Shown: in pieces, positions 1,734 through 50,148 of the stretch
Position numbering within the stretch: position 1 is the first letter of the stretch
Layout: each line of letters begins with the position of its first letter
Assembly: GCA_018222865.1 (NCBI GenBank)
Contig: JAAEZM010000001.1
Coordinates: forward strand, 63,457-127,456
Source of the DNA: Alphaproteobacteria bacterium
GTDB lineage: Bacteria > Pseudomonadota > Alphaproteobacteria > Caulobacterales > Maricaulaceae
Length of the DNA stretch: 64,000 bases
Reading direction: 5' to 3'
The notes under the pieces: generated by a model
Seen by the model: the letters and a program-made list of their open reading frames with translations, nothing else
What the model was told of the DNA's origin: nothing
The model's database searches: none
Program-made: the position numbers and the translations under genes

Positions 1734-3143
1734 GTGGGGTTACTGCGAATGGACGGCGGAACACAGCATGCGGCAGGACGCCTGCGTGAGCGGCTCTGGG
1801 CCTCGGAGGCGGCGAGCGGTCTCGCGACCCGTAAGCCGCAGCATTCCGCACGCCTTGCCCTGACGCGCAGCCAGGGTCTTGTTCTCACCCTCAGCGCGCT
1901 CGTCCTGGCAGGAGCGGTCCTTTTCCAGCCGGCTGTTGTGATAGCCCTGTTCAGCTTGGGTTTCCTGGCCCTTGTCGTGCTGAGGCTTCATGCAGCCTTC
2001 AGCATCCCTGAGCGATGCGCGCGCCAACCGCTTCAGGACAGCCTTCTTCCTCACATCGCCCTGCTTCTTCCGGCTTATAAGGAAGCCCCGATATTGCCAC
2101 ATCTGGCCCGGTCGATTGCAGCCCTGGACTACCCGGCGGATCGATTGGAGGTCATCCTGGCCCTGGAAGCGGAAGATGAGGAAACCTGTCAGGCCGCTCA
2201 GGAGCTTGTCCTGCCCCGCCATTTCAAGATCGTCCGGGTGCCCGACGGCTTCCCACGAACCAAGCCGCGCGCGCTTAATTTCGCGCTGCGACATAGCCAG
2301 GCGGATATAATCGGTATTCTTGATGCGGAGGACCGCCCGTCGCCCCAGCAAGTGCGAGAAGTCGCCGAGACCTTTGCAACAGCGCCCGATGACATAGCCT
2401 GCCTTCAAGCCCCGTTGAACTGGTATAATCGGCAAGACACCTGGCTGACCGGTCAGTTCGCGATGGAATATGCGGCGCACTTCAATGTCATGCTCCCATT
2501 GTATCAAAGACTGGGTTGGCCATTGCCGCTCGGTGGAACGAGCAATTACTTTCGCCGCCAGAGTCTGGAAAGTGCGGGCGGATGGGATGCTTTCAATGTG
2601 ACCGAGGATGCGGATCTGGGCTTTCGCCTTGCCGCACACGGCCTGCGCACTGTCATGATTGGCGAGCCGACCCTTGAAGAAGCCCCGCTCCATGTTCGCG
2701 CCTGGGTTATGCAGCGGTCACGCTGGCTGAAGGGCTATGCTCAAACCCTCGCCGTCCACCTTCGGCGACAGGACGGTGCGCATCCAACAATCCGCTCGCT
2801 CTCGATCATTGTCAGCCTTGGCGCGGCGCTCGTATCAGCGCTTGCGCATGCGCCGCTGGCCCTATTCAGCATCATATATCTGTTCGGGGGCTGGTCTGGA
2901 GGATGGGCGCAGTGTTTCGCCCTGGCCTTCCTGCTTAGCGGATATGCCTCAACCGCATTATGTGCCTGGATAGGATCAAGGCGCGCTGGATTCAGACCGC
3001 GTCGGCGGGACTTCCTGCTCATGCCGGTCTACTGGCTCTTGCAAACCATTGCTGCGATACGCGCCTTGTGGCAGTGGGCCATCAATCCCTATCTTTGGGA
3101 CAAGACGGAACACGGGCAGAGCAAGGCATGTACATCCCCCTGA
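1734..3143 (+). CDS. Processive-type family 2 glycosyltransferase, membrane-bound
   Basis: A 469-residue membrane glycosyltransferase of the cellulose/hyaluronan synthase type (GT2). Two N-terminal membrane segments (about residues 45-85) precede the GT-A domain with LLPAYKEAPIL, the acidic ILDAEDRPSP motif, NVTEDADLGFRL and the acceptor/product motif QRSRWLKG (QxxRW). Two or three more membrane segments follow (about 355-455). There is no PilZ domain, so it is not a standard BcsA. The start is given as the GTG at 1734; an ATG at 1749 is an alternative. It probably makes or extends a surface polysaccharide. The next gene overlaps its last 16 bases, which suggests co-translation. Confidence 0.8.
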   Translation: MGLLRMDGGTQHAAGRLRERLWASEAASGLATRKPQHSARLALTRSQGLVLTLSALVLAGAVLFQPAVVIALFSLGFLALVVLRLHAAFSIPERCARQPLQDSLLPHIALLLPAYKEAPILPHLARSIAALDYPADRLEVILALEAEDEETCQAAQELVLPRHFKIVRVPDGFPRTKPRALNFALRHSQADIIGILDAEDRPSPQQVREVAETFATAPDDIACLQAPLNWYNRQDTWLTGQFAMEYAAHFNVMLPLYQRLGWPLPLGGTSNYFRRQSLESAGGWDAFNVTEDADLGFRLAAHGLRTVMIGEPTLEEAPLHVRAWVMQRSRWLKGYAQTLAVHLRRQDGAHPTIRSLSIIVSLGAALVSALAHAPLALFSIIYLFGGWSGGWAQCFALAFLLSGYASTALCAWIGSRRAGFRPRRRDFLLMPVYWLLQTIAAIRALWQWAINPYLWDKTEHGQSKACTSP

Positions 3144-12043: not shown

Positions 12044-12736
12044 CTAGCCAGCCTTGATGTCGAAGGAATAGCCCGCAGAGCGAACCGTACGGATCGGATC
12101 GCGCTCTTCCTTGTTATTCAGGGCCTTGCGCAAACGACCGACATGCACATCAACCGTCCGGGCCTCGACATAGACATCCGCGCCCCAGACCGCGTCGAGC
12201 AATTGCTCACGTGAGAAGACCCGTCCGGGGTGCTGCATGAGATAATCGAGAAGGCGGAATTCGGTTGGTCCAAGATGGATCTCGCGATCCGAGCGCCGCA
12301 CACGGTGGGCAACCCGATCCATCTGAATGTCACCAGCCTTGATAATGTCCTCTGCAAGGCCCGGGCGGATCCGGCGCAGCACCGCGCGGATGCGCGCAAA
12401 GAGTTCGGTCATGGAGAAGGGTTTGACGATATAATCATCAGCGCCTGTATCCAGCCCGCGGACCCGGTCAGTCTCCTCACCACGCGCGGTCAGCATAATG
12501 ATCGGAACATTCGCCGTTTCCTGGCGGCTTCTCAGCCGACGGCAGACTTCGATGCCGGAGACTTTCGGTAACATCCAATCGACCAGAACAAGGTCCGGAG
12601 TTGTCTCCTCAGACAGGATCAGAGCCTCTTCGCCATCGCCGGCAACAGAAACATCATAACCTTCTTTTTCCAGATTGTACTGAAGCAGGGTGGCCAGGGC
12701 ATCTTCGTCTTCGACAACAAGAACATGCGGGTTCAT
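12044..12736 (-). CDS. phoB: Phosphate regulon response regulator PhoB
   Basis: An OmpR-type response regulator of 230 aa. The receiver domain (1-120) has the acidic pair VVEDED, phospho-acceptor D53 in VLVDWMLPKV, and the switch lysine in YIVKPFS. The winged-helix domain (130-225) carries LGPTEFRLLDYLMQHPGRVF and VDVHVGRLRKAL, as in PhoB. The start at 12736 follows AGGAG at good spacing; a GTG one codon earlier is possible. It lies 10 bases after phoU, so the two are cotranscribed. Confidence 0.94.
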   Translation of the reverse strand: MNPHVLVVEDEDALATLLQYNLEKEGYDVSVAGDGEEALILSEETTPDLVLVDWMLPKVSGIEVCRRLRSRQETANVPIIMLTARGEETDRVRGLDTGADDYIVKPFSMTELFARIRAVLRRIRPGLAEDIIKAGDIQMDRVAHRVRRSDREIHLGPTEFRLLDYLMQHPGRVFSREQLLDAVWGADVYVEARTVDVHVGRLRKALNNKEERDPIRTVRSAGYSFDIKAG

Positions 12737-12746
12737 CACGCGTCTC

Positions 12747-13448
12747 CTAGTCCGGGTCTTTGTGTACCGGTGACTTACTCATTTCCAGATGCGTGCCGGT
12801 GACCATGAAATGCACCGACTCCGCGATATTCGTGGCGTGATCGCCGACACGCTCGAGATTTTTGCCGACGAACAGGATATGAGCGCCAGGCCCTACCCGG
12901 TCGGGGTGTCGCGTCATGGAAACCAACACATCCCGGGTAAGCGCATCATAGTGCTCATCAACTTCATCATCGGCCCGCCAGACACGCAGGGCCGGCTCCA
13001 GCTCGTGCGAGCTCATCGCGTCCAGGACTTCACGCAATTGTTTCGCGACCAGCGCGCCAAGACGTTCGACCTGTCCCGCTTCATCCATCGGCGCAAATGC
13101 AGCCATGTCCTGGGCGCGATAGGCGATATTCTTGGCGAGATCCCCCACACGCTCGAGGTCTGATGAAATTTTCAGAGCCGACAAGGTCATGCGCAGATCG
13201 TTGGCCATGGGCTGACGCAGCGCAAAAAGGCGGATCACCCGTTTTTCGATCGCATCGGTCAAGGCATTCACCTTCACCTCGCGCTCGCGCACGGTGGCTG
13301 AAACAGACGCGTCGCGGCGCGCAAACGCACCCAATGCCTCGGCGAGCTGAATCTCCACCAGGCCACCCAGCCGCGCGAGTTCATCACCGAGCATTTCAAG
13401 CTCAGCGCCGTATGCAGACACGATATGCGTATTTTGGGACAGCGGCAT
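12747..13448 (-). CDS. phoU: Phosphate signalling protein PhoU
   Basis: PhoU is a peripheral helical protein that links the Pst transporter to the PhoR kinase and keeps the Pho regulon off when phosphate is plentiful. The 233-residue protein has the two three-helix repeats, each with the metal-binding pattern (SSDLERVGDLAKNIAYRA and GKNLERVGDHATNIAESV). The start at 13448 follows GGAGGG. No pst genes are adjacent, which is unusual. A Pho-box-like array lies 117 bases upstream. Confidence 0.94.
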   Translation of the reverse strand: MPLSQNTHIVSAYGAELEMLGDELARLGGLVEIQLAEALGAFARRDASVSATVREREVKVNALTDAIEKRVIRLFALRQPMANDLRMTLSALKISSDLERVGDLAKNIAYRAQDMAAFAPMDEAGQVERLGALVAKQLREVLDAMSSHELEPALRVWRADDEVDEHYDALTRDVLVSMTRHPDRVGPGAHILFVGKNLERVGDHATNIAESVHFMVTGTHLEMSKSPVHKDPD

Positions 13449-13564
13449 AAGCCCTCCTCTAAACACCATCGACACGCGCAAGGGTCTCGAAGTCGCAACG
13501 TCCGGCTTGCCCGGGAACGTCCTTCTGCTTTGCGCCAGAGATATCGACGGTGCTGCGAGGCTTT

Positions 13565-13593
13565 ATGACAATTCGACTACTGTTTTGTGACAG
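13565..13593 (-). promoter_or_regulatory. Putative PhoB-binding Pho box upstream of phoU-phoB
   Basis: Read on the minus strand, three 7-mers occur with an exact 11-base period: CTGTCAC, CAGTAGT, TTGTCAT. They are separated by AAAA and CGAA. The first and third match the PhoB consensus CTGTCAT/C at 6-7 of 7 positions. The array begins 10 bases after the phoR stop, so phoU-phoB likely has its own autoregulated promoter. Confidence 0.65.
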
Positions 13594-13602
13594 CGACTGA
13601 GC

Positions 13603-15003
13603 TTACTCGTCAGCCGCAGCGGCCTCAGCGCGCTGCTTTTCGTCCAGCTCTTTGAAAAATACTGAGAAAACCGAGCCTACTTCTGGCGCACTCTCAACCG
13701 TGAAACCACCGCGGTGGCGGTTCACAATATGCTTTACGATTGCCAGGCCGAGCCCTGTTCCCTCTTTGGGACCGCTTTTTTGGCCATCAACGCGGTAAAA
13801 CCGCTCCGATAATCGCGGCAGATTTCGGCGTTCTATCCCCTTGCCGCTATCTCGGACACGCAACACGGCAAAGTTTTCGCCAGGTTCAGACGCTGGCGCT
13901 GCGAGCGTCAAACGGCTGGACTCCCCCCCAAGCTGCAAGGGTGGACGCTCTGCCTCATCCCGCCCCATTCCCGTTTCAAGCTCAAGCGAGAGCTGGGCGT
14001 TCTCGGGTGAATACTTGATCGCGTTCTCGACAAGGTTCTGAACCACTTCCGTGATCTGATCCCGGTCCCCGATTATCAGAGCGGAGGGTGCCAGCTGCAC
14101 AGTGAATTCGATCGACTTCGCAGCGAGTTGCGGCCGCAGCATATCAATCACATCATCCGCAGCGGTTCTCAAATCCGTCTTCGCGCTCGGAGGGACGTGC
14201 TCATCCATTTCGATGCGAGAGAGGGAAAGCAGATCATTGATCAGGCGCTGCATACGCTCTGTCTGATCAAACATAATCCCCAGGAAGCGCTCGCGCGCGA
14301 CCTCATCATCCTTGGCATGCCCGCGCAGTGTTTCAATAAATCCGGCCAGTGACGCCAGCGGGGTGCGCAATTCATGGCTCGCATTGGCGAGAAAGTCGGC
14401 CCGCATACGGTCTGCGCGTTTGATCGAGGTCTCATCCAGCAGCACCAGCATTGCGCGCCAGGGTAAAACACTATCCGTCGGCATTGAGATCGGCGCGACG
14501 AACGCGCGGACATGGCTCTCCACCGGCGCCATGTTTGAATACTCTACAGTTTTGACCTCGCCGCCCCGCAGCGCCATGCTTACCGCTTCAAGCACTTCAG
14601 GCTGGCGCAAGACGGAGGAGAGATGTCCCAGGGTCGAACCAAGGCCCAAAAAGCTCCGCGCAGCCGGATTGGCGCTGTCGATACGCCCCCCACCCCCAAT
14701 CATCAGCACCGGGATCGGCAATGTCTCCAGCATGGCTTGCGCTGAGACAGTCTGGTCTTCTTCCTCGTCTTCAACGGTGACGGCAATGCTTGTTGCTCCG
14801 GGATTCAGTGTCGTGCTCACGGTCAGATAATAGAAGACCGACAGGGCGGCGATCGTCGCGATTGCCACGATTGTCGGCACAAATCCCAGCTCGCCAAAAA
14901 TCCAAAGCAACAGCAAGACCGTACTGCCTAATGCTGCGACCGCAGCGGTATCGCGTCTCCGAATTCGTACGGACGGCTGGGACTCGTTCTCGACCTTGCT
15001 CAA
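13603..15003 (-). CDS. phoR: Phosphate regulon sensor histidine kinase PhoR
   Basis: A membrane sensor kinase of 466 aa that phosphorylates PhoB. Two membrane segments (about 21-37 and 42-62) precede a PAS domain (about 90-190). The dimerisation domain has the phospho-histidine H210 in FLANASHELRTPLASL. The ATPase domain has N (VVQNLVENAIKYS), G1 (VRDSGKGI), F and G2 (GTGLGLAIVKHI) boxes. The start appears to be TTG at 15003 with a weak ribosome site. A long insert after the N box adds length. It is followed by phoU-phoB on the same strand. Confidence 0.92.
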   Translation of the reverse strand: MSKVENESQPSVRIRRRDTAAVAALGSTVLLLLWIFGELGFVPTIVAIATIAALSVFYYLTVSTTLNPGATSIAVTVEDEEEDQTVSAQAMLETLPIPVLMIGGGGRIDSANPAARSFLGLGSTLGHLSSVLRQPEVLEAVSMALRGGEVKTVEYSNMAPVESHVRAFVAPISMPTDSVLPWRAMLVLLDETSIKRADRMRADFLANASHELRTPLASLAGFIETLRGHAKDDEVARERFLGIMFDQTERMQRLINDLLSLSRIEMDEHVPPSAKTDLRTAADDVIDMLRPQLAAKSIEFTVQLAPSALIIGDRDQITEVVQNLVENAIKYSPENAQLSLELETGMGRDEAERPPLQLGGESSRLTLAAPASEPGENFAVLRVRDSGKGIERRNLPRLSERFYRVDGQKSGPKEGTGLGLAIVKHIVNRHRGGFTVESAPEVGSVFSVFFKELDEKQRAEAAAADE

Positions 15004-21265: not shown

Positions 21266-23341
21266 ATGAAAAAACTGCTTTTGAGCACAGCAGCACTTCT
21301 GGTGCTGGCCGGATGCGACCAACTTCAATCAACATCACAAACCGAAACGGTTGAAGACACCCAGATTGCTGCGACCGCGGTCATCGGCGAATGGGGTTTT
21401 GATATGGACGGCATGGACCTGTCCTATCATCCAGGCGACGACTTTTTCCGCTATGCCAATGGCACCTGGCTGGACACGACGGAGATCCCGTCCGACCGCT
21501 CCAACTGGGGCATGTTCTCAGTGCTCGCGGACGAGGCGGAAGAAGATGTTCGTGCAATCATTCTCGATCTCGCCGGCACCGATCCGGAAGCCGGTACGAT
21601 TGAGCAGAAGGTTGGCGACCTCTATGCCAGCTGGATGGACACGGAGACTGTCGAGCAACTCGGCCTGACACCGATTCAGCCTTATCTTGATGAGATCGCC
21701 GCTGCTGAAACCCATGCGGATATTCGCGGCCTGTTTGCGACCATCCACTACATGTCGCCTTTCGGCGTCGGGATTATTCCCGATCCGGCTGACACAACCC
21801 GTTACACGGTGTTTGTGGGGCAAGGCGGTCTTGGCCTGCCGGATCGAGACTATTATCTCGATGAGGAAAACGAGGCTTATGCGCGGTATCGCGAAGGCTA
21901 TGTCGATTTCATCGCTCAGATGTTCGACCTCGCGGGCATGGAAGACGGCGCGGCGCGTGCGCAGGCGATCATGGACCTTGAAACGCGCATTGCGGCTGTC
22001 CACTGGACCCAGGCCCGCTCGCGCAACATCCAGGAAATCTACAACCCGATGCCGCTGGACCAACTGAGCGCGCTTGCGCCCACGCTCGACTTCACCGGCG
22101 GGATGGCACAGCTCGGCCTTGATAGTGTCGCGACCTACCTTGTCGCCCAGCCCAGCGCTATTGAAGGCGCTGGCATAATCTTTGATGAGACGCCAGTTGA
22201 TGTCTGGAAGGACTATATGACCTTCCACTTCCTGCAGGCCAATGCCGGTGCACTGCCCTCAGCCTTCGATGAAGCGAACTTTGAATTCTTCTCGCGTACG
22301 CTGAATGGCATTGAAGAACAGCGTCCTCGCGATCGCCGCGGCGTTCTTCTGGTCGGCAACCAGCTCGGCGAAGCGGTTGGACAAGTCTATGTTGATCGGC
22401 ACTTCCCGCCATCCTCCAAGGAGTCGATGGAGGGCCTGGTCGCCAATTTGACCACCGCATTTGAAGGCCGCCTGAACAATCTGGAATGGATGGATGACGA
22501 AACGCGCGAAAACGCTTTGCGCAAGCTGTCCACCTTCGAGCCGCGCATTGGCTATCCGGATGAGTGGCAGAACTACTCTGAGCTGGACATCTCTGCGGAT
22601 GACTTGTTCGGCAATATGATGCGGATCACGGAGTTCCAATGGCGCGAGCAAGTCGCCGATCTGGATGGCCCCGTCGATCGTGCGGCTTGGCCCTACCCGC
22701 CACAGACGGTGAATGCATCATACAACCCGCTGATGAACCAGATCACTTTCCCGGCCGGCATCCTGCAAGCCCCCTTCTTTGATCCGGCCGCTGATCCGGC
22801 GATGAATTACGGTGCGATCGGCGCCGTCATCGGTCACGAAATCGGCCATGGTTTTGATGATCAGGGTCGTCGTTTCGACTTTGACGGCTCGATCCGGGAT
22901 TGGTGGACCATGGAGACCAATGCCCGCTTCGAGGAGCGCGCAGACCGTCTGGGGTCTCAGTATGACACCTACTCCCCGATCGAAGGCATGTTCGTGAATG
23001 GTGAGTTCACCATGGGCGAAAACATCGGAGATCTGGGTGGTGTTCAGATGGCCTATACGGCCTATCGCAATTATGTCGCTGAAACCTATGAAGGCGGCGA
23101 AGCCCCGGTCATTGACGGCTTCACCGGCGATCAGCGTTTCTTCCTGGCCTGGGCCCAGGTCTGGCGTCGTCTCTATCGCGAAGACAATCTGATCTCGCGC
23201 TTGTCCACGGACCCGCACAGCCCGTCGCAATATCGCACCAATGGTGTCGTGCGAAATCTGGACGCCTGGTATGAGGCCTTCGGCATCACCGAAGAGCATG
23301 CGCTTTACCTGCCGCCGGAAGACCGCGTGCGCATCTGGTAA
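21266..23341 (+). CDS. M13 family zinc metallopeptidase, lipoprotein (first of tandem pair)
   Basis: A neprilysin/PepO-like zinc endopeptidase (691 aa) that probably degrades short peptides at the cell envelope. Lipobox LVLAGC gives a lipidated cysteine at 17. The catalytic region is complete: NPLMNQITFPAGILQAPFF, then HEIGH (His 524) in a GHEIGHGFDDQGRRF context, and GENIGDLGGVQMA supplying the third zinc ligand (Glu). The C-terminal LYLPPEDRVRIW matches the family end (usual ...RVWW or RVRIW). It is followed by its own terminator and a close paralogue. Confidence 0.94.
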   Translation: MKKLLLSTAALLVLAGCDQLQSTSQTETVEDTQIAATAVIGEWGFDMDGMDLSYHPGDDFFRYANGTWLDTTEIPSDRSNWGMFSVLADEAEEDVRAIILDLAGTDPEAGTIEQKVGDLYASWMDTETVEQLGLTPIQPYLDEIAAAETHADIRGLFATIHYMSPFGVGIIPDPADTTRYTVFVGQGGLGLPDRDYYLDEENEAYARYREGYVDFIAQMFDLAGMEDGAARAQAIMDLETRIAAVHWTQARSRNIQEIYNPMPLDQLSALAPTLDFTGGMAQLGLDSVATYLVAQPSAIEGAGIIFDETPVDVWKDYMTFHFLQANAGALPSAFDEANFEFFSRTLNGIEEQRPRDRRGVLLVGNQLGEAVGQVYVDRHFPPSSKESMEGLVANLTTAFEGRLNNLEWMDDETRENALRKLSTFEPRIGYPDEWQNYSELDISADDLFGNMMRITEFQWREQVADLDGPVDRAAWPYPPQTVNASYNPLMNQITFPAGILQAPFFDPAADPAMNYGAIGAVIGHEIGHGFDDQGRRFDFDGSIRDWWTMETNARFEERADRLGSQYDTYSPIEGMFVNGEFTMGENIGDLGGVQMAYTAYRNYVAETYEGGEAPVIDGFTGDQRFFLAWAQVWRRLYREDNLISRLSTDPHSPSQYRTNGVVRNLDAWYEAFGITEEHALYLPPEDRVRIW

Positions 23342-23368
23342 AGCGATCTCGCTTATCGCAAGCAGGAA

Positions 23369-23399
23369 AGCCCGGAGCCTCGGCTCCGGGCTTTCTTGT
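23369..23399 (+). terminator. Rho-independent terminator between the two M13 peptidase genes
   Basis: A perfect 10-bp stem, AGCCCGGAGC with GCTCCGGGCT, has a CTCG loop and is followed by TTCTTGTT. The two paralogues are therefore probably separate transcription units. Confidence 0.85.
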
Positions 23400-23505
23400 T
23401 CCTGTCATCGGCGCCTCACCTCACAGAAGCGTAAGTTGCGATTTGCGTCCTGAGGCCTAGGTTCGTGAGTTGACCTTGAATTCGGGCTTTCATCGGGGAG
23501 TTAAA

Positions 23506-25587
23506 ATGAGAAAGATCCTGCTCGCGAGCGCCAGCGTCATGCTGCTTGCCGCCTGTAACCCGGCATCCACGCCGGATGCCGCAACTGAGACCGAGACCAC
23601 GGAAACGCAATCCGCTGCAATGCCGGCGGGCGCGCCAGAGCTCGGCAGCTGGGGCGTTGAAACCCAGAATGTTTCTGAGACCGTGCATCCCGGTGATGAT
23701 TTCAACCGCTTCGTCAATGAAGGCTGGCTGAACACAACGGAAATGCCGCAAGGCTTCTCTCGCTATGGTGCCTTTACCGAGCTTTTCCTGCGGTCAGAGG
23801 AGCGCATTCAGGGAATTATCGAAACGGCCAGCGCCGCCAATGCGGAAGCCGGTACGCTGCAGCAGCAGATTGGTGATCTCTACTCCTCCTACATGGACAC
23901 CGAAGCGCGCGCCGCACTCGGTTTTGAGCCTGCGCGGGAGATGCTCGACCGCATTGCCGCGGCAGAAGACCATAATGCCATCGCCGATCTGATGGGGCAG
24001 CCGGGCACCACATCGATCCTCTCGGCCTTTGTCGGCCGCGACCCGGGCAATCCTCAGCGCTATATCGTGTCCGTAAGCCAGTCCGGTCTCGCCTTGCCCG
24101 ACCGCGATTATTATCTGCGTGATGATCAGCAATTCATCGACTATCGCGACGCCTATACCAGCTATATCGCCGACACGTTCGAGATGGCCGGTTATGATAA
24201 TGGTGCCGAACGCGCCCAGGCGATCCTCGATCTGGAAACCGCAATTGCGCAAATCCACTGGACGCGGGCGGATAGCCGCGATCGGGTTCGCACCTATAAC
24301 CTGACCGAGACCGCTGATCTGGACAGCCAGTATGGCGGTTTCCCCTGGGAAACCTTCATGACGTCACTTGATTTTGCCGATCAGGACGAAGTCGTCATTC
24401 GCCAGAACACTGCGATTGAAGGTCTCGCCCAGCTCTTCGGCGAAATTCCGGTCTCCACCTGGCAGGATTATCTCAGCTTCCGCTACCTGTCCTCCAATCG
24501 CAATCTGCTGACGCCAGAATTCTACGATCGCTCCTTCGACTTCTGGCAACGCACGCTCAACGGAACGGAACAACCTCGCCCGCTTGAGAACCGCGCCATC
24601 CAGTTCGTCAACGGCAATCTCGGCCAGGCTATCGGCCAGATCTATGTCGAGCAGTATTTCCCGCCGGAATACAAAGCCCAGATGGATGAGCTGGTGGAAT
24701 ACCTGCGCCGGGCTCTGCGTGAGCGCATCGAAACGCTTGAATGGATGGATGACGAAACCCGCGTTGAGGCCCTCGACAAGCTCGAGAAATTCCTGCCGAA
24801 GATCGGTTATCCGGACCAGTGGCCGGATATTTCCTCCATCGAGATCATGGCCGGTGATGCGTTCGGTAACGCACAGCGTGTAGCGGCGTGGCAGCGCGCC
24901 GACAGCCGCGCGCGTCTGCGCGGCCCGATCCGCTCTTGGGAATGGTTCATGTCACCACAGACAGTGAACGCCTATTATTCCTCGACCTCGAACGAGATCG
25001 TCTTCCCGGCGGCTATTTTGCAGGCCCCATTCTTTGATCCCTATGCCGACCCGGCAGTGAATTTTGGCGCGATCGGTGCCGTGATTGGTCATGAAATGGG
25101 TCACGGCTTTGACGATCAGGGCTCTCAGTCCGATGGCGATGGCGTGCTGCGTAATTGGTGGACGGATACCTCCCGGGCCAATTTCGAAGAGCGGGCTGAC
25201 CGTATCGTCGCCCAGTACAACGAATTCTCGCCAGTTGAAGGCCTGTTCGTAAACGGTCGCCTGTCACTGGGTGAGAATATCGGTGATATCGGCGGCATGT
25301 CGATGGCGCACCGCGCGTATCAGCTCTACCTGGAAGATAATGGCGAAGCACCCGTGCTGGATGGCTTTACCGGCAATCAGCGCTTCTTCATGGGCTGGGC
25401 GCAGGTCTGGCGCAATCTGCAAACGGAAGATGCCCTGCGCACACAATTGCTGCGCGGCCCGCATTCCCCGGCGCAGTTCCGGATCAATGGCGTCGTGCGC
25501 AATCAGGACGCCTGGTACGAAGCGTTTGGCGTCACTGAAGGCCATGCGCTCTACTTGCCACCTGAGGAGCGTGTCTCCATCTGGTAA
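23506..25587 (+). CDS. M13 family zinc metallopeptidase, lipoprotein (second of tandem pair)
   Basis: A paralogue of the preceding gene (693 aa). The start at 23506 follows GGGGAG and gives lipobox LLAAC (Cys 17). The zinc site is HEMGH (His 529) within GHEMGHGFDDQGSQ, with GENIGDIGGMSMA carrying the glutamate ligand, and the C-terminus is YLPPEERVSIW. Domain order and length match the first copy, but the sequence differs clearly, so the duplication is old. Probably a cell-envelope oligopeptidase with a different preference. Confidence 0.94.
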   Translation: MRKILLASASVMLLAACNPASTPDAATETETTETQSAAMPAGAPELGSWGVETQNVSETVHPGDDFNRFVNEGWLNTTEMPQGFSRYGAFTELFLRSEERIQGIIETASAANAEAGTLQQQIGDLYSSYMDTEARAALGFEPAREMLDRIAAAEDHNAIADLMGQPGTTSILSAFVGRDPGNPQRYIVSVSQSGLALPDRDYYLRDDQQFIDYRDAYTSYIADTFEMAGYDNGAERAQAILDLETAIAQIHWTRADSRDRVRTYNLTETADLDSQYGGFPWETFMTSLDFADQDEVVIRQNTAIEGLAQLFGEIPVSTWQDYLSFRYLSSNRNLLTPEFYDRSFDFWQRTLNGTEQPRPLENRAIQFVNGNLGQAIGQIYVEQYFPPEYKAQMDELVEYLRRALRERIETLEWMDDETRVEALDKLEKFLPKIGYPDQWPDISSIEIMAGDAFGNAQRVAAWQRADSRARLRGPIRSWEWFMSPQTVNAYYSSTSNEIVFPAAILQAPFFDPYADPAVNFGAIGAVIGHEMGHGFDDQGSQSDGDGVLRNWWTDTSRANFEERADRIVAQYNEFSPVEGLFVNGRLSLGENIGDIGGMSMAHRAYQLYLEDNGEAPVLDGFTGNQRFFMGWAQVWRNLQTEDALRTQLLRGPHSPAQFRINGVVRNQDAWYEAFGVTEGHALYLPPEERVSIW

Positions 25588-45203: not shown

Positions 45204-46229
45204 TTACTGAGGATCGCTCAATTGGGTCCGCATCGCCCGCAGATCGACAATCTTGAAGTTCTGCCCCCCGGTGTCTTCCTCGTCATCCTGGACCACGAAG
45301 ACGCCTTCAGGGAAGTCCGACCCCAGCGATGCCGCCGAGATTTCGAGCCCGTCCGTATGGGTGACGCGATCATGCAGACCATCGACAATCTGGAAACGCG
45401 CAGCCGGAGCGCCGGTCTCCAATTCATAGACAGCATATGTGTTCGCGCTCTGGCTGGAGACGACCAGCCAGCCCCCGGTCTCGCCCTCAGGCAGGATGGC
45501 CACGCCTTCAGCATCGGCATGCAGATGGACATTATCGACTTCAGCAAAGAGGCTCAGTTCGGTTCCCGCATCGGGCTCAGCACCAATACTCCAGACCGCA
45601 ACATTCTCCTCGGCAATGTAAAGCATGCCGGTCCGATCATCAGCGACGCAGCCTTCCGTCGTTGAACCGGTCGCAAAGCGCCGGACTTCATCGCCGGTAA
45701 TGACACCCTCGCCATCATAGCGCAGCAGTAATTGCACAACCGTACCCGGGTCCTTGTCCGTCACGAAGGCATAATAAGCACCGGTGGATGAATGATAGAG
45801 GCAGGCGCCATACGGATCGGCAAAGTCAGGCAGATCGATCAGCGGCCAGGCTTCAATCTCGCCGGTCTGCGGATCAATCATGAAAACCGCCAGACCGATA
45901 TTGGTTCGCTCGGATGCGACGGCGATATCGCGCGCTGGCCCCGGCATCGGGAAGTTATAGCGCACATCGACATTATTAACCTCACCGACCGGCAAATTCT
46001 GGGCAATACTGCCATCGAGGCGATAAGCGTAGAGACCGGCCTGTTTATCGGTTCCCAGGATGAGGCTGTCTTGCGGATTAGGAGCAACCCAGACCGCCGG
46101 ATCATCAGCGGCATCATCATTGGAGGCGACGCGCACTGTTTCAACGGCGGCTTCGAGTTCGAGCGGCGCTTCCCCGGCACATGACACCGCGATGAAACCA
46201 GCTGCAATTGGTGTGAGAATTTGACGCAT
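45204..46229 (-). CDS. Beta-propeller phytase (3-phytase), lipoprotein
   Basis: A 341-residue calcium-dependent phytase that removes phosphate from inositol hexakisphosphate. The hallmark NDDAADDPAVWVAP segment, VNNVDVRYNFPMPG, RDIAVASERTN, DPYGACLYHSSTGAYYAFV, STTEGCVADDRTGMLYIAEE, ADAEGVAILPEG and TDGLEISAASLG supply the six-bladed propeller and its acidic calcium/phosphate sites. The signal peptide ends in VSCAG, a lipobox-like VSC (Cys 17). The ATG at 46229 follows GGGGAGC. It is divergent from a TonB receptor, a pairing reported for beta-propeller phytases of aquatic bacteria. Confidence 0.92.
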   Translation of the reverse strand: MRQILTPIAAGFIAVSCAGEAPLELEAAVETVRVASNDDAADDPAVWVAPNPQDSLILGTDKQAGLYAYRLDGSIAQNLPVGEVNNVDVRYNFPMPGPARDIAVASERTNIGLAVFMIDPQTGEIEAWPLIDLPDFADPYGACLYHSSTGAYYAFVTDKDPGTVVQLLLRYDGEGVITGDEVRRFATGSTTEGCVADDRTGMLYIAEENVAVWSIGAEPDAGTELSLFAEVDNVHLHADAEGVAILPEGETGGWLVVSSQSANTYAVYELETGAPAARFQIVDGLHDRVTHTDGLEISAASLGSDFPEGVFVVQDDEEDTGGQNFKIVDLRAMRTQLSDPQ

Positions 46230-46356
46230 GATAAGCTCCCCAGCGTAAGCGTGAGGCTCGTGAAAGCCTATTTTTCAAAGCAAATCCTGTGAAAGTTTTG
46301 TAACCTTGTGATGCAATTTCGCCGCGTCACAATTTTGATACGCAAATGCAGCGATA

Positions 46357-46385
46357 ACGACATCCAAACGTCATCCGAGCGTCAC
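46357..46385 (+). promoter_or_regulatory. Putative Pho box array upstream of the TonB receptor gene
   Basis: Three 7-mers with an exact 11-base period: ACGACAT (46357), ACGTCAT (46368), GCGTCAC (46379). They are separated by CCAA and CCGA. This is the spacing of PhoB boxes (two or more CTGTCAT-like repeats 4 bases apart). A further in-phase GCGTCAC lies at 46324-46330. A -10-like CATAGC follows 10 bases downstream. The array points towards the TonB receptor, 71 bases before its ATG. Confidence 0.65.
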
Positions 46386-46456: not shown

Positions 46457-49282
46457 ATGAAGAAGACCATCGCCATGCTCGGCACGGCCTCCGTGCTGGC
46501 TCTCGCAGCCGCAACGGCTGCACATGCCGGTTCTGTTTCCGGCCGCGTTTCCGACGCATCCATGACCATCGGCCTGCAAGGCGCGACCATCCGCGTCCTT
46601 GAAACCGGTGCGAGCGCTGTCGCCGGCCGCGACGGTGCCTTCCGTATCGCGGGTCTGCCGGCTGGGCAGTATACGCTGCGTGTGAACTATGTCGGTGCGG
46701 ACGCACGTGACATCACGATCACCATCCCGAGCGATGATGCCAACGTCAACACTGACGTGGTGATGGGTGATGATGTTGCTTTCCGCGAGAACATCCTGGT
46801 TATCGGTCAGCGCGGTGCCATCAACTCTGCCCTGTCTCGCCAGCGCGCGGATGATGGTGTTGTCACGGTCCTTTCTTCTGACGCTATCGGCCAGTTCCCG
46901 GATGAGAACGTCGCTGAAGCAGCCCGCCGCGCCGTCGGTGTCAACGTCCTGAACGACCAGGGCGAAGGCCGCTTCGTCTCCATCCGTGGTCTCGACCCGA
47001 ACCTGGTCTCCACCTCCATCAACGGCGTTCGCCTGACCTCCCCGGAAGCTGAAGACCGCCAGGTTGGCCTCGACGTGATCGACGCGGACGTGCTGTCCTC
47101 CGTCGTCATCAACAAGACGCTCCTGCCGAATATGGACGCAGACAGCGTCGGCGGTAATGTCGAGATCGAGACCATGTCCGGCCTGGACAGCGATGGTCTT
47201 TATCTGCGCGGCCGTGTTGCGACCCTCTTCTCCAACCTGGAAGACAGCTTCGGCTATCGCGGCTCCATCAACTTCGCCAACAGCTTCATGAACGACCAGC
47301 TCGGTGTTGCTGGCTCTCTTTCCTATCAGGAGCGTGAGTTCGGTTCCGAGAGCTATGAAGTCGATGGCGGCTGGGACGAAGACAACGGCATCTACTTCCC
47401 GAACGAAGTCGAGATGCGGAACTATGAAATCACCCGCGAGCGTCTGACCGCGGTGCTGAATTTCGATTACGACTATTCCGACAATCTCAGCTTCTACTGG
47501 CGCAACACCTATTCTGACTTCTCCGACCAGGAATATCGTTCCCGCGTCGAGCTGAAGCTGGAAGATGCGCGCTTCGACTCGACCAATTCCACGGCGATCC
47601 TGCCGGTCTTCGTCGCTGACTCCAACGATCCGCTGGAAATCGACCGCGACATCAAAGACCGTCTGGAAACCCAGATGATCTTCGCGACCGATATCGGTGG
47701 TGAATACCTGATGGGCGACACGACCTTCGACTGGTCCCTGTCTTACACCTATGCTGAAGAAGAAGAGCCGAACCGTCTCGACACCGACTTCCGTGCTGAA
47801 TTCGACAGCAATGAAGTCCTCGGCGTCAACACGGCGGCTGGCGACATCCCGCAGCTCGTTTATCAGGGCGGCGCGACGACCCAGAATATCTTCAACAGCT
47901 CCAATTATGAGAATAACGGCTTCGAGCTGACCAATGGTCTGGCGCAAGACCGTGAATATGCCGGTTCGTTCAACGTCCGTCATGACTTCGCCCTCGCCAG
48001 TGGCGCAGCCTACATCCAGACCGGTCTTCGCTTCCGCTCGCGCGACAAGAAGTTCGAACTGGACATGGAAGTCTATGATGATGCGAGCAATCTGAGCCTC
48101 GCTGACGTCGAGAACTTCGTTGAATACACCCAGGACCGCCAGGGTCCGGTGCCGAGCGCTGGCCAGACACGTGACTGGTTCAATGCCAATCGCGCCAGCC
48201 TGAGCCTGGAAGTTGAAGACTCTCTCATCGAGAATCTCGGCTCCTCTTACAGCTTCTCTGAAGATGTCATGGCTGGCTATCTCATGGCCGGTTGGGAAAG
48301 CGGCCCGGTCCGCATCGTCGGTGGTGTCCGTATCGAAGACACGGACATTGAAGCACGCGGCACGGAAGTGCTGATCGCGGAAGAAAATTCCGTCGTGAGC
48401 GGCGGCGTGACCCTCTCAGACGATGCCGTCTTCTTTACGCCAATCCGCGCTGAAGACGAATACACGGACGTCCTGCCGTCCATCCTGGCGCGCTTTGAAG
48501 CTCGCGAGAACCTCATCTTCCGCCTCGGCTATTACGCGTCTATCCAGCGCGCGAACCCAGGCCAGTTCGCCCCGCGCGTCCTGGTCGAGCAGAATGACAA
48601 TAACGAGTTTGAAGGCGAGTTCGGCAATCCAGACCTCAACCATCTGGAAGCGGACAACTACGACATCTCTGTGGAATGGTATCCGAACAACGACTCCGTC
48701 GTCTCCCTCGGCTACTTCTTCAAGGAGCTCGAGAACGTCATCGCACCGATCGAGTACTCCAACATCACCCTGCAGGGTCGTCTGTTCGATGAAGCCTCTT
48801 CCTTCATCAACCTGCCGGACGGCGAAGTCTCTGGTTGGGAATTCAACTACCAGCAGGGCCTGGATGACTACCTGCCATTCGACGGTGTGATTGCTGGCTT
48901 CAACGTCACCTGGGCTAACTCTGACGCGACCCTTTCGGATGGCCGTGTCATCCCGCTGCCGCGCCAGTCTGACGTCGTATGGAATGCGGTCCTCGGCTAT
49001 GACCAGGGTCCGTGGGATCTGCGCGCTGTTGTCTCCCATCGTGATGAGTATCTCGATGAGATCCGCGGCGATGCCGGCTCCGACCGCATCGTCCTCGAGC
49101 ACACCCAGCTCGACCTGTCCGCGAAGTATAACTTCAACGACACGCTGCAGATCTTCGCTGACATCAAGAACGTCACAGACGAGCCTTATCATGCGGTGAC
49201 GCGTCCGGACGGCCTGAACCGCGTAGAGCAGTTCGAAGAGTATGGCTGGTCCACCGTATTCGGCATCCGTGTGACCTACTAA
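46457..49282 (+). CDS. TonB-dependent outer membrane receptor with carboxypeptidase-like N-terminal domain
   Basis: An outer-membrane receptor of 941 aa. It starts with a signal peptide cut after AHA (residue 24), then a carboxypeptidase-regulatory-like domain (VSGRVSDASMTIGLQGATIR to about 105). A TonB-box-like stretch (ENILVIGQR) and the plug domain (FPDENVAEAARRAVGVNVLN, RFVSIRGLDPNLVSTSINGV) follow. The 22-strand barrel runs to a terminal aromatic (STVFGIRVTY). The divergent phytase and the upstream Pho-box-like array suggest uptake of phytate or its breakdown products under phosphate limitation. The ATG at 46457 follows GGGGGAT. Confidence 0.92.
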   Translation: MKKTIAMLGTASVLALAAATAAHAGSVSGRVSDASMTIGLQGATIRVLETGASAVAGRDGAFRIAGLPAGQYTLRVNYVGADARDITITIPSDDANVNTDVVMGDDVAFRENILVIGQRGAINSALSRQRADDGVVTVLSSDAIGQFPDENVAEAARRAVGVNVLNDQGEGRFVSIRGLDPNLVSTSINGVRLTSPEAEDRQVGLDVIDADVLSSVVINKTLLPNMDADSVGGNVEIETMSGLDSDGLYLRGRVATLFSNLEDSFGYRGSINFANSFMNDQLGVAGSLSYQEREFGSESYEVDGGWDEDNGIYFPNEVEMRNYEITRERLTAVLNFDYDYSDNLSFYWRNTYSDFSDQEYRSRVELKLEDARFDSTNSTAILPVFVADSNDPLEIDRDIKDRLETQMIFATDIGGEYLMGDTTFDWSLSYTYAEEEEPNRLDTDFRAEFDSNEVLGVNTAAGDIPQLVYQGGATTQNIFNSSNYENNGFELTNGLAQDREYAGSFNVRHDFALASGAAYIQTGLRFRSRDKKFELDMEVYDDASNLSLADVENFVEYTQDRQGPVPSAGQTRDWFNANRASLSLEVEDSLIENLGSSYSFSEDVMAGYLMAGWESGPVRIVGGVRIEDTDIEARGTEVLIAEENSVVSGGVTLSDDAVFFTPIRAEDEYTDVLPSILARFEARENLIFRLGYYASIQRANPGQFAPRVLVEQNDNNEFEGEFGNPDLNHLEADNYDISVEWYPNNDSVVSLGYFFKELENVIAPIEYSNITLQGRLFDEASSFINLPDGEVSGWEFNYQQGLDDYLPFDGVIAGFNVTWANSDATLSDGRVIPLPRQSDVVWNAVLGYDQGPWDLRAVVSHRDEYLDEIRGDAGSDRIVLEHTQLDLSAKYNFNDTLQIFADIKNVTDEPYHAVTRPDGLNRVEQFEEYGWSTVFGIRVTY

Positions 49283-49313
49283 GTCACGCGGCCAAAAGCC
49301 AAATTCGACTAGA

Positions 49314-49347
49314 AACCCCCGGTCTGCTGACGCAGGCCGGGGGTTTT
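49314..49347 (+). terminator. Rho-independent terminator of the TonB receptor gene
   Basis: The stem AACCCCCGG with CCGGGGGTT has an inner CTGC/GCAG hairpin and is followed by TT. It starts 31 bases after the receptor stop. Confidence 0.85.
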
Positions 49348-49364: not shown

Positions 49365-49404
49365 TCGTCACAACGCTATCGCCTGAACGTCACAGACCTG
49401 TCGC
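49365..49404 (+). promoter_or_regulatory. Putative four-unit Pho box array driving a non-coding transcript
   Basis: Four 7-mers in exact 11-base steps: TCGTCAC (49365), CTATCGC (49376), ACGTCAC (49387), CTGTCGC (49398). The last two give the canonical 7-4-7 box with AGAC as spacer. A weak -10-like element (TTACTAC, 49414-49420) follows at the 10-base distance usual for PhoB-activated promoters. It lies after the receptor terminator and faces no protein gene on its strand until argH. Confidence 0.65.
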
Positions 49405-49426
49405 AGAGCGCGATTACTACAGCGCC

Positions 49427-49522
49427 AACCCTCTCCTCCCCGAGCGGGTTGTCCGGTTTTGACATCCCTTCGAACTGGAAATCACGAGTAACTGGCCGCC
49501 CTTATCGGGCGGCCATTTTTTT
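49427..49522 (+). ncRNA. Putative PhoB-regulated small RNA with C-rich anti-Shine-Dalgarno loops
   Basis: The start is inferred from the Pho box and -10-like element; the end is the T-tract. The approximately 96-nt RNA folds into three hairpins. Hairpin 1 is CAACCC/GGGTTG (49426-49451) with a 14-base loop, TCTCCTCCCCGAGC. Hairpin 2 is CCGGTT/AACTGG (49453-49478, one G-U) with a loop containing ATCCC. Hairpin 3 is the terminator. Loops with CUCCUCCC are the pairing sites of several known alphaproteobacterial small RNAs that block ribosome-binding sites. There is no start codon with a ribosome site inside. The transcript is inferred, not observed. Confidence 0.6.
49493..49522 (+). terminator. 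Rho-independent terminator with no protein gene in front of it
   Basis: A perfect 9-bp stem, TGGCCGCCC with GGGCGGCCA, has a TTATC loop and is followed by seven Ts. The receptor gene already has its own terminator 150 bases earlier, so this one implies a separate short transcript. Confidence 0.85.
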
Positions 49523-49563: not shown

Positions 49564-50148
49564 CTAGTGGAAACGAATGGCCGCTCGGATCAGATTGAAC
49601 GCATCTTCATGGTCCCAGTGCGCGGGCGCGGGCAAGCGGCCGATTTCACGACCCTGCCGATCATAAAGCACGGTCATGGGCAGACCGATCGCACCGACCT
49701 GGGTCATGCTGGCAAAGCTGGCATCATGGATCAAAGGTAGGGCATCGAGTTCCAGACGCTCGAAGAATTCTGCAGCGTCATCAATACTGCGATCAAGGCT
49801 GACCGTGACGACCTGGAAATCGGCTCCGCCCAGCTCTTCCTGCAGCGTGTTCAGCGCCGGCATTTCTTCAACACAGGGCGCACACCAGGTGGCCCAGAAG
49901 TTCACGAGGATGACCTGGCCGCGATAGGCCTCCAGGCTGGTCTCGCCGCCATCACCCGTAGTGAAGGTGACAGCCGGCTGCGCGGGCGGCTCTGCCATCA
50001 CCTGAAAAGCGCGCATTTCGCCACGGGCATAGCTGTCGAGTGAATTAGTGCTGGCGCTCTGCATGGAAGCTATGAATACATAGGCAATCGACACCAGACC
50101 GATGCCGAGCATGCCGAGAATGGCAATCTTAATCGGCGATACTTTCAT
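49564..50148 (-). CDS. TlpA-like thiol:disulfide oxidoreductase
   Basis: A membrane-anchored periplasmic thioredoxin-like protein (194 aa). The N-terminal membrane segment is at about residues 8-27. The thioredoxin fold carries the active site FWATWCAPCVEEMPAL (CxxC) and the cis-proline loop IGLPMTVLYDRQG. TlpA proteins reduce disulfides for cytochrome c or cytochrome oxidase assembly. The ATG follows AAGGAGG. It is divergent from argH with 22 bases between the starts, the order found in many alphaproteobacteria. Confidence 0.92.
   Translation of the reverse strand: MKVSPIKIAILGMLGIGLVSIAYVFIASMQSASTNSLDSYARGEMRAFQVMAEPPAQPAVTFTTGDGGETSLEAYRGQVILVNFWATWCAPCVEEMPALNTLQEELGGADFQVVTVSLDRSIDDAAEFFERLELDALPLIHDASFASMTQVGAIGLPMTVLYDRQGREIGRLPAPAHWDHEDAFNLIRAAIRFH

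Follow-up and report, generated by a model that had tools for sequence, protein, structure and literature searches.

Does the intergenic region behind a TonB-dependent receptor gene in a 64,000-nucleotide stretch of a Maricaulaceae genome (contig JAAEZM010000001.1; this whole stretch is called the window below) encode a small RNA (sRNA), which regulator would control it, and on what would it act? A preliminary description of this DNA had proposed a phosphate-starvation sRNA with anti-Shine-Dalgarno (anti-SD) loops, placed under a four-unit Pho box. In silico, the gene, its structure, its conservation, the array and the linkage to the receptor locus are all present. We consider it fairly probable, from the sequence comparisons described here, that the locus encodes a PhoB-activated, trans-acting sRNA which represses translation via two anti-SD loops.

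A conserved structured RNA

The RNA of about 100 nt folds into two hairpins and a terminator (-41.6 kcal/mol, z -4.56), and only 1 of 200 shuffled sequences folded equally well. Both hairpins of the preliminary description are found in this fold, and its 9-bp GC-rich terminator with seven Ts was recovered as a stem of nine pairs at 49493-49515 with seven T directly after. The C-rich motif that had been placed in the first loop needs a partial correction: CUCCUCCCC does lie in hairpin 1, but the loop is not wholly open, as base pairing between CUC of the motif and GAG reduces the apical loop to six nt, CUCCCC. A 2-bp inner helix within the first loop is kept in all 17 homologues.

To characterize the distribution of the RNA, two covariance models were used. 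The first (R1), built from seven sequences, reached at least 46.8 bits in 17 of the 19 Maricaulis genomes, and no other match exceeded 27.8 bits among 136 genomes of the family. With the refined model (R2), 15 of the 17 Maricaulis genomes covered gave at least 69.6 bits, and 36.7 bits was the maximum elsewhere among 398 genomes of the order; G068 and G079 do not appear in this second search, presumably not having been drawn, hence the 17 genus genomes. Neither model detected the RNA in G073 and G074, which are drafts of 94% and 90% completeness, and its absence there may be a gap. An exact pattern search of named genomes returned 12 stretches, every one from a Maricaulis record, including M. 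maris, M. parjimensis and M. alexandrii; several of these loci are not independent of the 19 genus genomes. BLAST over 137 family genomes matched seven genomes of the same genus, the RNA's own included, and one locus of genus g3 (L007), where the match covers the terminator side only and does not represent the same RNA. Of the weak covariance matches, six from R1 were inspected by eye (L027-L032, all outside the genus except L030, which comes from the genus member G073), and 15 loci from R2 (L198-L212) were examined for a Pho array, with the truncated L202 and L207 unscored; 12 of the 13 scored loci of the latter set had none at the expected place. At L201 a high-scoring four-unit stretch lies at offset 110, but the RNA there has no C-rich loop and the locus was set aside. 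The preliminary description had taken a lack of conserved loops and array among relatives as an outcome that would speak against the RNA; the covariance-model search instead gave the distribution above, with the array ranking first at every locus with the RNA.

In the alignment of the 17 sequences, 97.9% of cells were paired compared with 92.7% in shuffles, and 9 of 17 pairs showed changes on both sides compared with 1.7 in shuffles, which exceeds every slid version; the relatedness of the sequences inflates the shuffle comparison. Hairpin 1 and the terminator, but not hairpin 2, guided the fitting of the alignment, and compensatory changes are present in all three stems. Both-side changes were counted in 4 of 6 pairs of hairpin 1 (from a single sequence, see below), in 2 of 4 pairs of hairpin 2, where they occur in one sequence (the window's own) and in three others, and in 3 of 6 pairs of the terminator. 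The locus is almost certainly an independent structured RNA.

A Pho-like array upstream of the RNA

The four 7-mers in 11-base steps that had been reported before the RNA proved exact in their coordinates: TCGTCAC at 49365, CTATCGC at 49376, ACGTCAC at 49387 and CTGTCGC at 49398. With a generic PhoB matrix, the array scored 24.8, the best value on both strands of the window; the runner-up scored 14.3, and the best of 30 windows simulated by a first-order Markov model 19.1. A genus matrix was built from the phoU box and 11 boxes of pst loci (of 20 pst-family loci), with the RNA's own array excluded; these 11 were chosen as the best generic-matrix scores, so that the genus matrix leans to the generic one. 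Left out as near-duplicates were L058 (its box being identical to that of L050) and L062 (close to L053), and seven loci without a good three-unit box in the stretch covered were also left out (L044, L052, L055, L057, L060, L061 and L063; in L052 two units are visible by eye). By this matrix the array scored 21.7 in the window, followed by 10.2 at the next place, and it ranked first of both strands in 17/17 homologous loci, 58-60 nt before the RNA. Over these loci the mean pairwise identity was 0.78 for the GTCAY cores of the units, 0.47 for the spacers and 0.30 for the 45 nt upstream.

The -10-like element of the preliminary description held up in part. Its TA is invariant in the 17 loci, followed by G in 15 and then by A in 15, whereas the window's own ATTACT is poorer than the versions of the relatives, most of which end in TAGA. 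A scan for consensus sigma-70 promoters found none. From the position of this element, we infer a transcription start at about 49421-49426. The arrangement of the Pho regulon, TGTCA-type 7-mer repeats in 11-bp steps before a -10, is thus present at this locus. The same motif occurs at pst and phoU genes of the genus and phoB is present: PhoB exceeded the TIGR02154 cut-off in 18 of 19 genus genomes, the exception being G068 with 65% completeness. In silico support is good for both the RNA gene and its Pho array, and if the RNA is independent, its control by PhoB is likely on these motif comparisons.

The array of a genuine RNA could instead be read by another OmpR/PhoB-type regulator, for example ChvI. 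In the excerpts of the literature used here and below, OmpR-type regulators generally bind tandem sites of 6-10 bp, 2-5 bp apart (PMC10538546), Caulobacter ChvI drives the sRNA ChvR, which represses a TonB receptor (PMC6237742), and Agrobacterium chvI complements an Escherichia coli phoB mutation, according to a paper title. PhoB relatives are also many, with 37 to 53 TIGR02154 matches per genome in 18 of 19 genomes and 34 in the incomplete G068. However, the Caulobacter ChvI motif TTGC-N3-GCAA (PMC9731502) was not seen in the array, the description of chvR confines it to C. crescentus (PMC6237742), and the array is placed first by the pst-locus/phoU matrix, PhoB-type matrices being the only ones compared. 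A regulator other than PhoB is unlikely in our view; identity with ChvR, or ChvI-type control as the first choice, was rejected on the differing ChvI motif and the C. crescentus-specific chvR.

Anti-SD loops and candidate targets

The loops of the putatively PhoB-controlled RNA, CUCCUCCCC and AUCCCU, are complementary to strong SDs. In its own genome GGGGAGGA was found 12 times within 3-12 nt of an ATG, compared with 5 for the reversed pattern. For CGGGGAGGA at 3-12 nt before ATG, 116 matches were obtained in the 19 genomes (17 for the reversed control), which recur at the same genes; this enrichment is expected of any SD and is no proof of use by the RNA. The search for strong-SD targets was enriched over control yet not specific. 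It covered 80 of 83 extra target places, leaving out G074:C31, G079:C71 and G079:C109.

Four examples illustrate the genes at which a CGGGGAGGA SD recurs. A second TonB receptor is encoded in 8 of 19 genomes, all eight with this SD and with the RNA, and is not present in the window's genome. The others, by Pfam family, are an acyltransferase of PlsC type (seven genomes), an AMP-binding ligase (seven genomes and one other family member) and a glycerol kinase (three genomes); the names PlsC and glycerol kinase are our own reading beyond the Pfam family. The second TonB receptor and the PlsC-like and glycerol-kinase-like genes are target leads only. The candidates were picked by their SD pattern, and their duplex energies with the RNA are no independent test. 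If the RNA is independent and controlled by PhoB, it would very probably act as a trans repressor through its anti-SD loops.

As a side observation, an inverted repeat of the CCGG-N3-CCGG type lies just before CGGGGAGGA in seven leaders of the second TonB receptor and in L113 (L213-L219, L113); this leader may itself be regulatory. Further, an ExbD/TolR gene and, 4.5 kb on, a TonB-like gene recognized by eye both carry GGGGAGGA SDs (G000:C2:202728-207268).

Instead of repressing mRNAs, the RNA could mainly act on another RNA, as a sponge or as an antisense decoy, or bind a protein. G-rich loops of other sRNAs are further possible partners of C-rich seeds, and the excerpt on Caulobacter CrfA describes it as a sponge of the C-rich SisA-D RNAs (PMC12559287). 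No partner RNA turned up, none being searched for, and the loops of the RNA complement strong SDs, which are frequent before ATG as the CGGGGAGGA counts illustrate. We regard a role of this kind as quite improbable.

Genomic neighbourhood, transcription unit and coding potential

The position beside a phytase/TonB receptor locus, as it had been described, is a conserved one. The receptor is present in 16 of 19 genus genomes, and in 16/16 the RNA lies behind it at a distance of 141-224 nt, with a phytase homologue across from the receptor in 16/16 loci (one of them present as a 52-aa fragment where the locus ends, another in two pieces). G067 carries the RNA and the array without the receptor, which favours a trans role on genomic context, and G073 and G074 have neither receptor nor RNA. 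The best three-unit box lies 100-105 nt before the receptor start in 12 of 16 loci. One receptor homologue (L230, G078:C5:180411-183215) has a single TGA inside the match. The features of the locus and of the phosphate regulators are listed in Table 1.

The preliminary description had given the receptor a terminator of its own and had inferred a separate transcript for the RNA. An inverted repeat at about 49313-49347 agrees with the former, with equivalents seen by eye in 12/12 named loci; the automated terminator scan missed it, probably because only four T follow. Since this repeat separates receptor and RNA, and the RNA is kept behind the receptor, the RNA appears to be its own unit travelling with a phosphate-scavenging locus, and a separate transcription unit is supported by the comparative evidence, as are the Pho array and the C-rich loop architecture. 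An origin as a product of the 3' untranslated region or as a read-through tail of the receptor mRNA would explain why the RNA stands directly behind the receptor wherever this is present. With the intervening repeat, the conservation of array and -10 and the receptor-less RNA and array of G067, it is very unlikely, and it was rejected on the repeat and G067. A promoter-like element with predicted activity, an own terminator, a non-coding sequence and a conserved structure together point to an independent intergenic sRNA gene.

That the RNA encodes a small peptide under Pho control is hardly credible: 8 of 17 homologues do contain an open reading frame (ORF) of 32-35 codons beginning near RNA position 26, but these ORFs run through the terminator, are unlike between clades and are missing from the other 9 (the L026 homologue has no ORF of at least 12 aa), and the RNA structure shows compensatory changes. 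In agreement with the earlier claim that no plausible ORF is present, no ORF of alike sequence common to all 17 homologues was found, and a coding RNA was rejected on this comparison.

Table 1. Positions of the RNA gene, its neighbours and the phosphate regulators in the window
Feature	Position	Strand	Evidence or remark
Four-unit Pho-box-like array, 7-bp units in 11-bp steps	49365..49404	+	Best four-unit score in window; first in 17/17 loci
-10-like element, ATTACT; relatives mostly NNTAGA	49413..49418	+	Alignment columns of 17 loci
Small RNA, about 100 nt, apparently non-coding	49423..49522	+	Fold z, covariance models R1 and R2, no alike ORF
Hairpin 1 with CUCCUCCCC at 49433-49441, putative anti-SD loop	49426..49451	+	Fold; covariation
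Hairpin 2 with loop CAUCCCU at 49463-49469, second C-rich loop	49452..49479	+	Fold; covariation
Intrinsic terminator, 9-bp stem then seven T	49493..49522	+	Sequence, inverted-repeat scan, covariation
TonB-dependent receptor, left neighbour of the RNA	46457..49282	+	Pfam Plug, OMP_b-brl_3
Terminator-like inverted repeat of the receptor, between receptor and RNA gene	49313..49347	+	Read from sequence
Weaker Pho-like array before the receptor, between receptor and phytase	46346..46385	+	14.3 with generic matrix (second), 9.9 with genus matrix (fourth)
Phytase, divergent from the receptor	45204..46229	-	Pfam Phytase, 257.6 bits
TlpA-like thioredoxin protein, conserved right neighbour	49564..50148	-	Pfam AhpC-TSA/Redoxin; in 14 of 17 loci searched
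PhoB response regulator	12044..12739	-	TIGR02154 363.4 bits, cut-off 296.2 (G000:C23:75515-76192); Pfam Response_reg and Trans_reg_C
PhoU	12747..13481	-	Pfam PhoU
Three-unit Pho box before phoU, between kinase and phoU; same-genome reference site	13565..13593	-	Matrix scan
Histidine kinase, PhoR-like by position and domains	13603..15003	-	Pfam HisKA, HATPase_c, PAS

Elsewhere in the window, two adjoining genes for M13-type peptidases were noted at 21266-25587, the first by Pfam Peptidase_M13 and the second alike by eye; the latter is preceded, at 23391, by a Pho-like stretch of two to three units.

Proposed mechanism and its weighing

In the proposed mechanism, phosphorylated PhoB would bind the four direct repeats, which occupy the usual place of a -35 element, when phosphate is scarce, and transcription would start about 20 nt downstream of the repeats. 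The resulting transcript of about 100 nt would end at its own terminator and fold into the two hairpins, with C-rich loops complementary to purine-rich SD sequences. The RNA, perhaps together with Hfq (the gene of which was detected in 19/19 genus genomes), would then repress a selection of mRNAs from other loci by pairing with their ribosome-binding sites. By way of this conserved module of phytase, TonB receptor and sRNA, one signal may raise phosphate scavenging while other genes would be translated less. PhoB binding, induction, base pairing, repression and the targets are what we infer from the features described above.

A more far-reaching version is possible but doubtful. Here the RNA would supply the repression in a phosphate-scavenging module that is complete in itself: the Pho signal would turn on phytase and TonB receptor, and the RNA would silence competing receptors and porins of the outer membrane as well as steps that consume phosphate (PlsC-like acyltransferase, glycerol kinase), thereby freeing membrane space, translation and phosphorus, while the module's own mRNAs would be spared owing to the poor fit of their SDs to the loops.

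Several observations weigh against a PhoB-activated anti-SD RNA in this module. Concerning the array, its first unit is GACAC or GACGC/T in most relatives, not GTCAC; within the stretch covered, the PstS-like gene of this genome lacks a good three-unit box (best 9.6, L044), and such a box is missing in 7 of the 20 pst-family loci. The three-unit pattern gave four matches in the own genome, two of them in the array and the other two inside long ORFs (L040, L041), compared with two for a reversed control. The boxes before the receptor are weaker than that of the RNA, and rank first in their locus in only 6 of 16 cases. Concerning the structure, all four compensatory pairs of hairpin 1 come from one sequence, that of G067, in which the first loop also differs (UCCCUCCCC). 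Concerning the targets, the acyltransferase and the ligase keep their strong SD in G074, where the RNA was not found; SD conservation alone therefore proves nothing, and the needs of translation may suffice to keep the SD. Within the module itself, receptor and phytase have SDs that form poor duplexes with the loops (-11.0 and -12.9 kcal/mol), the median being -9.9 for a background of 53 mechanically called window ORFs with uncertain starts. As these SDs pair weakly, we commit to trans repression of mRNAs encoded elsewhere.

If true, such a conserved RNA with a Pho array at a phytase/TonB-receptor locus would open an RNA branch of the response to phosphate starvation to direct tests in cultured, named Maricaulis strains (M. 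maris DSM 4734, M. parjimensis DSM 16078 and M. alexandrii LZ-16-1), and could help to explain how bacteria cut unneeded synthesis during phosphate scavenging.

Relation to known small RNAs

At the gathering threshold of Rfam 15, no family was found on the RNA, and the whole window gave only two tRNAs. A sub-threshold search with a stretch of 221 bases returned 28 matches up to E = 10, and a known Rfam family was rejected, as none reached threshold. The best of these matches over the whole RNA was anti-hemB of Burkholderia (RF02837; 27.8 bits, E 7.2e-5, cut-off 49.5 bits), which presumably belongs to another bacterial class. Both RNAs have a first hairpin with a CUCCUCCCU loop and then a terminator, whereas the second hairpin of the window's RNA is unaligned. 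For alpha-r14, Rfam ar14 scored 14.9 against a cut-off of 58.8. For alpha-r8, which we take to be the suhB/mmgR of Rfam, suhB gave 16 against 41 bits, and the UUUCCUCCCU core is absent from the RNA. The ar15 family, which we assume Rfam to contain, was not among the 28 matches. The earlier claim that no description of this RNA is known agrees with our search, since none was found in Rfam 15 or in the literature searched, with most subscription papers and preprints being outside its coverage.

AbcR1 and AbcR2 of Sinorhizobium, Agrobacterium and Brucella (alpha-r15) silence mRNAs at the ribosome-binding site through the motifs CUCCUCCC and UUCCCCUC (PMC8844928), as is predicted for the window's RNA, which likewise has two C-rich loops whose pairing is predicted. 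In the excerpt available, the second AbcR motif lies between stem-loops, not in a hairpin loop as here, and transcription depends on LsrB or RpoH1 instead of a Pho array. NfeR1 (alpha-r14), whose C-rich loops act at ribosome-binding sites (PMC10746234), and the 'cuckoo' RNAs resemble the RNA in carrying CCUCCUCCC-type anti-SD motifs in hairpin loops on varying stems (PMC10746234, PMC3927594); as excerpted, alpha-r14 has three hairpins with an identical CCUCCUCCC motif, whereas the RNA described here has two different loops. The alpha-r8 RNAs (SisA-D) share a C-rich seed, UUUCCUCCCU, with a terminator, and their targets include TonB receptors (PMC12559287), but according to the excerpt the seed is single-stranded after a weak hairpin and the gene usually lies beside an FGase gene. 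ChvR of C. crescentus is likewise an sRNA under a two-component system and linked to a TonB-dependent receptor as target; it differs in being ChvI-controlled, specific to C. crescentus and pairing via its second and third stem-loops, as far as the excerpt goes (PMC6237742). Among these, ChvR is the closest known system in logic, and by analogy alpha-r14, alpha-r15 and alpha-r8 are closest in their way of working.

Links between PhoB and sRNAs have been reported elsewhere. The Sinorhizobium candidates sm14, sm25, sm30 and smrC16 have a predicted PhoB site before a predicted intergenic sRNA, whereas the sRNAs which that study found raised by phosphate starvation showed no evident conserved PhoB site (PMC2573895), and a PhoB-induced sRNA was proposed for E. 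coli rpoS (PMC8829014). In the excerpts of these sources, neither a two-loop anti-SD RNA nor a phytase module is described for them. Anti-SD sRNAs are known in several Alphaproteobacteria, where the signals named in the excerpts are LsrB, RpoH1, ChvI, NtrBC and carbon starvation. Apparently new are this RNA family, the combination of its two-loop design with a Pho array, and its location within a module of phytase and receptor.

Two further kinds of C-rich RNA were seen in the family. At L007 (about 2570-3020; G002, genus g3), two successive RNAs each have a C-rich stretch and, after it, a terminator-like hairpin with CUCCUCCCC as its loop, forming a small array of anti-SD-like RNAs. Genus g15 has a single-hairpin RNA (L205, L206 and L210) with the loop CUCCUCCCCGA...CGGG before a strong terminator, as in the window's RNA. 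It differs in its length of about 80 nt, its one hairpin and its lack of a Pho array by the genus matrix (four-unit ranks 38 to 151), and is probably another anti-SD sRNA.
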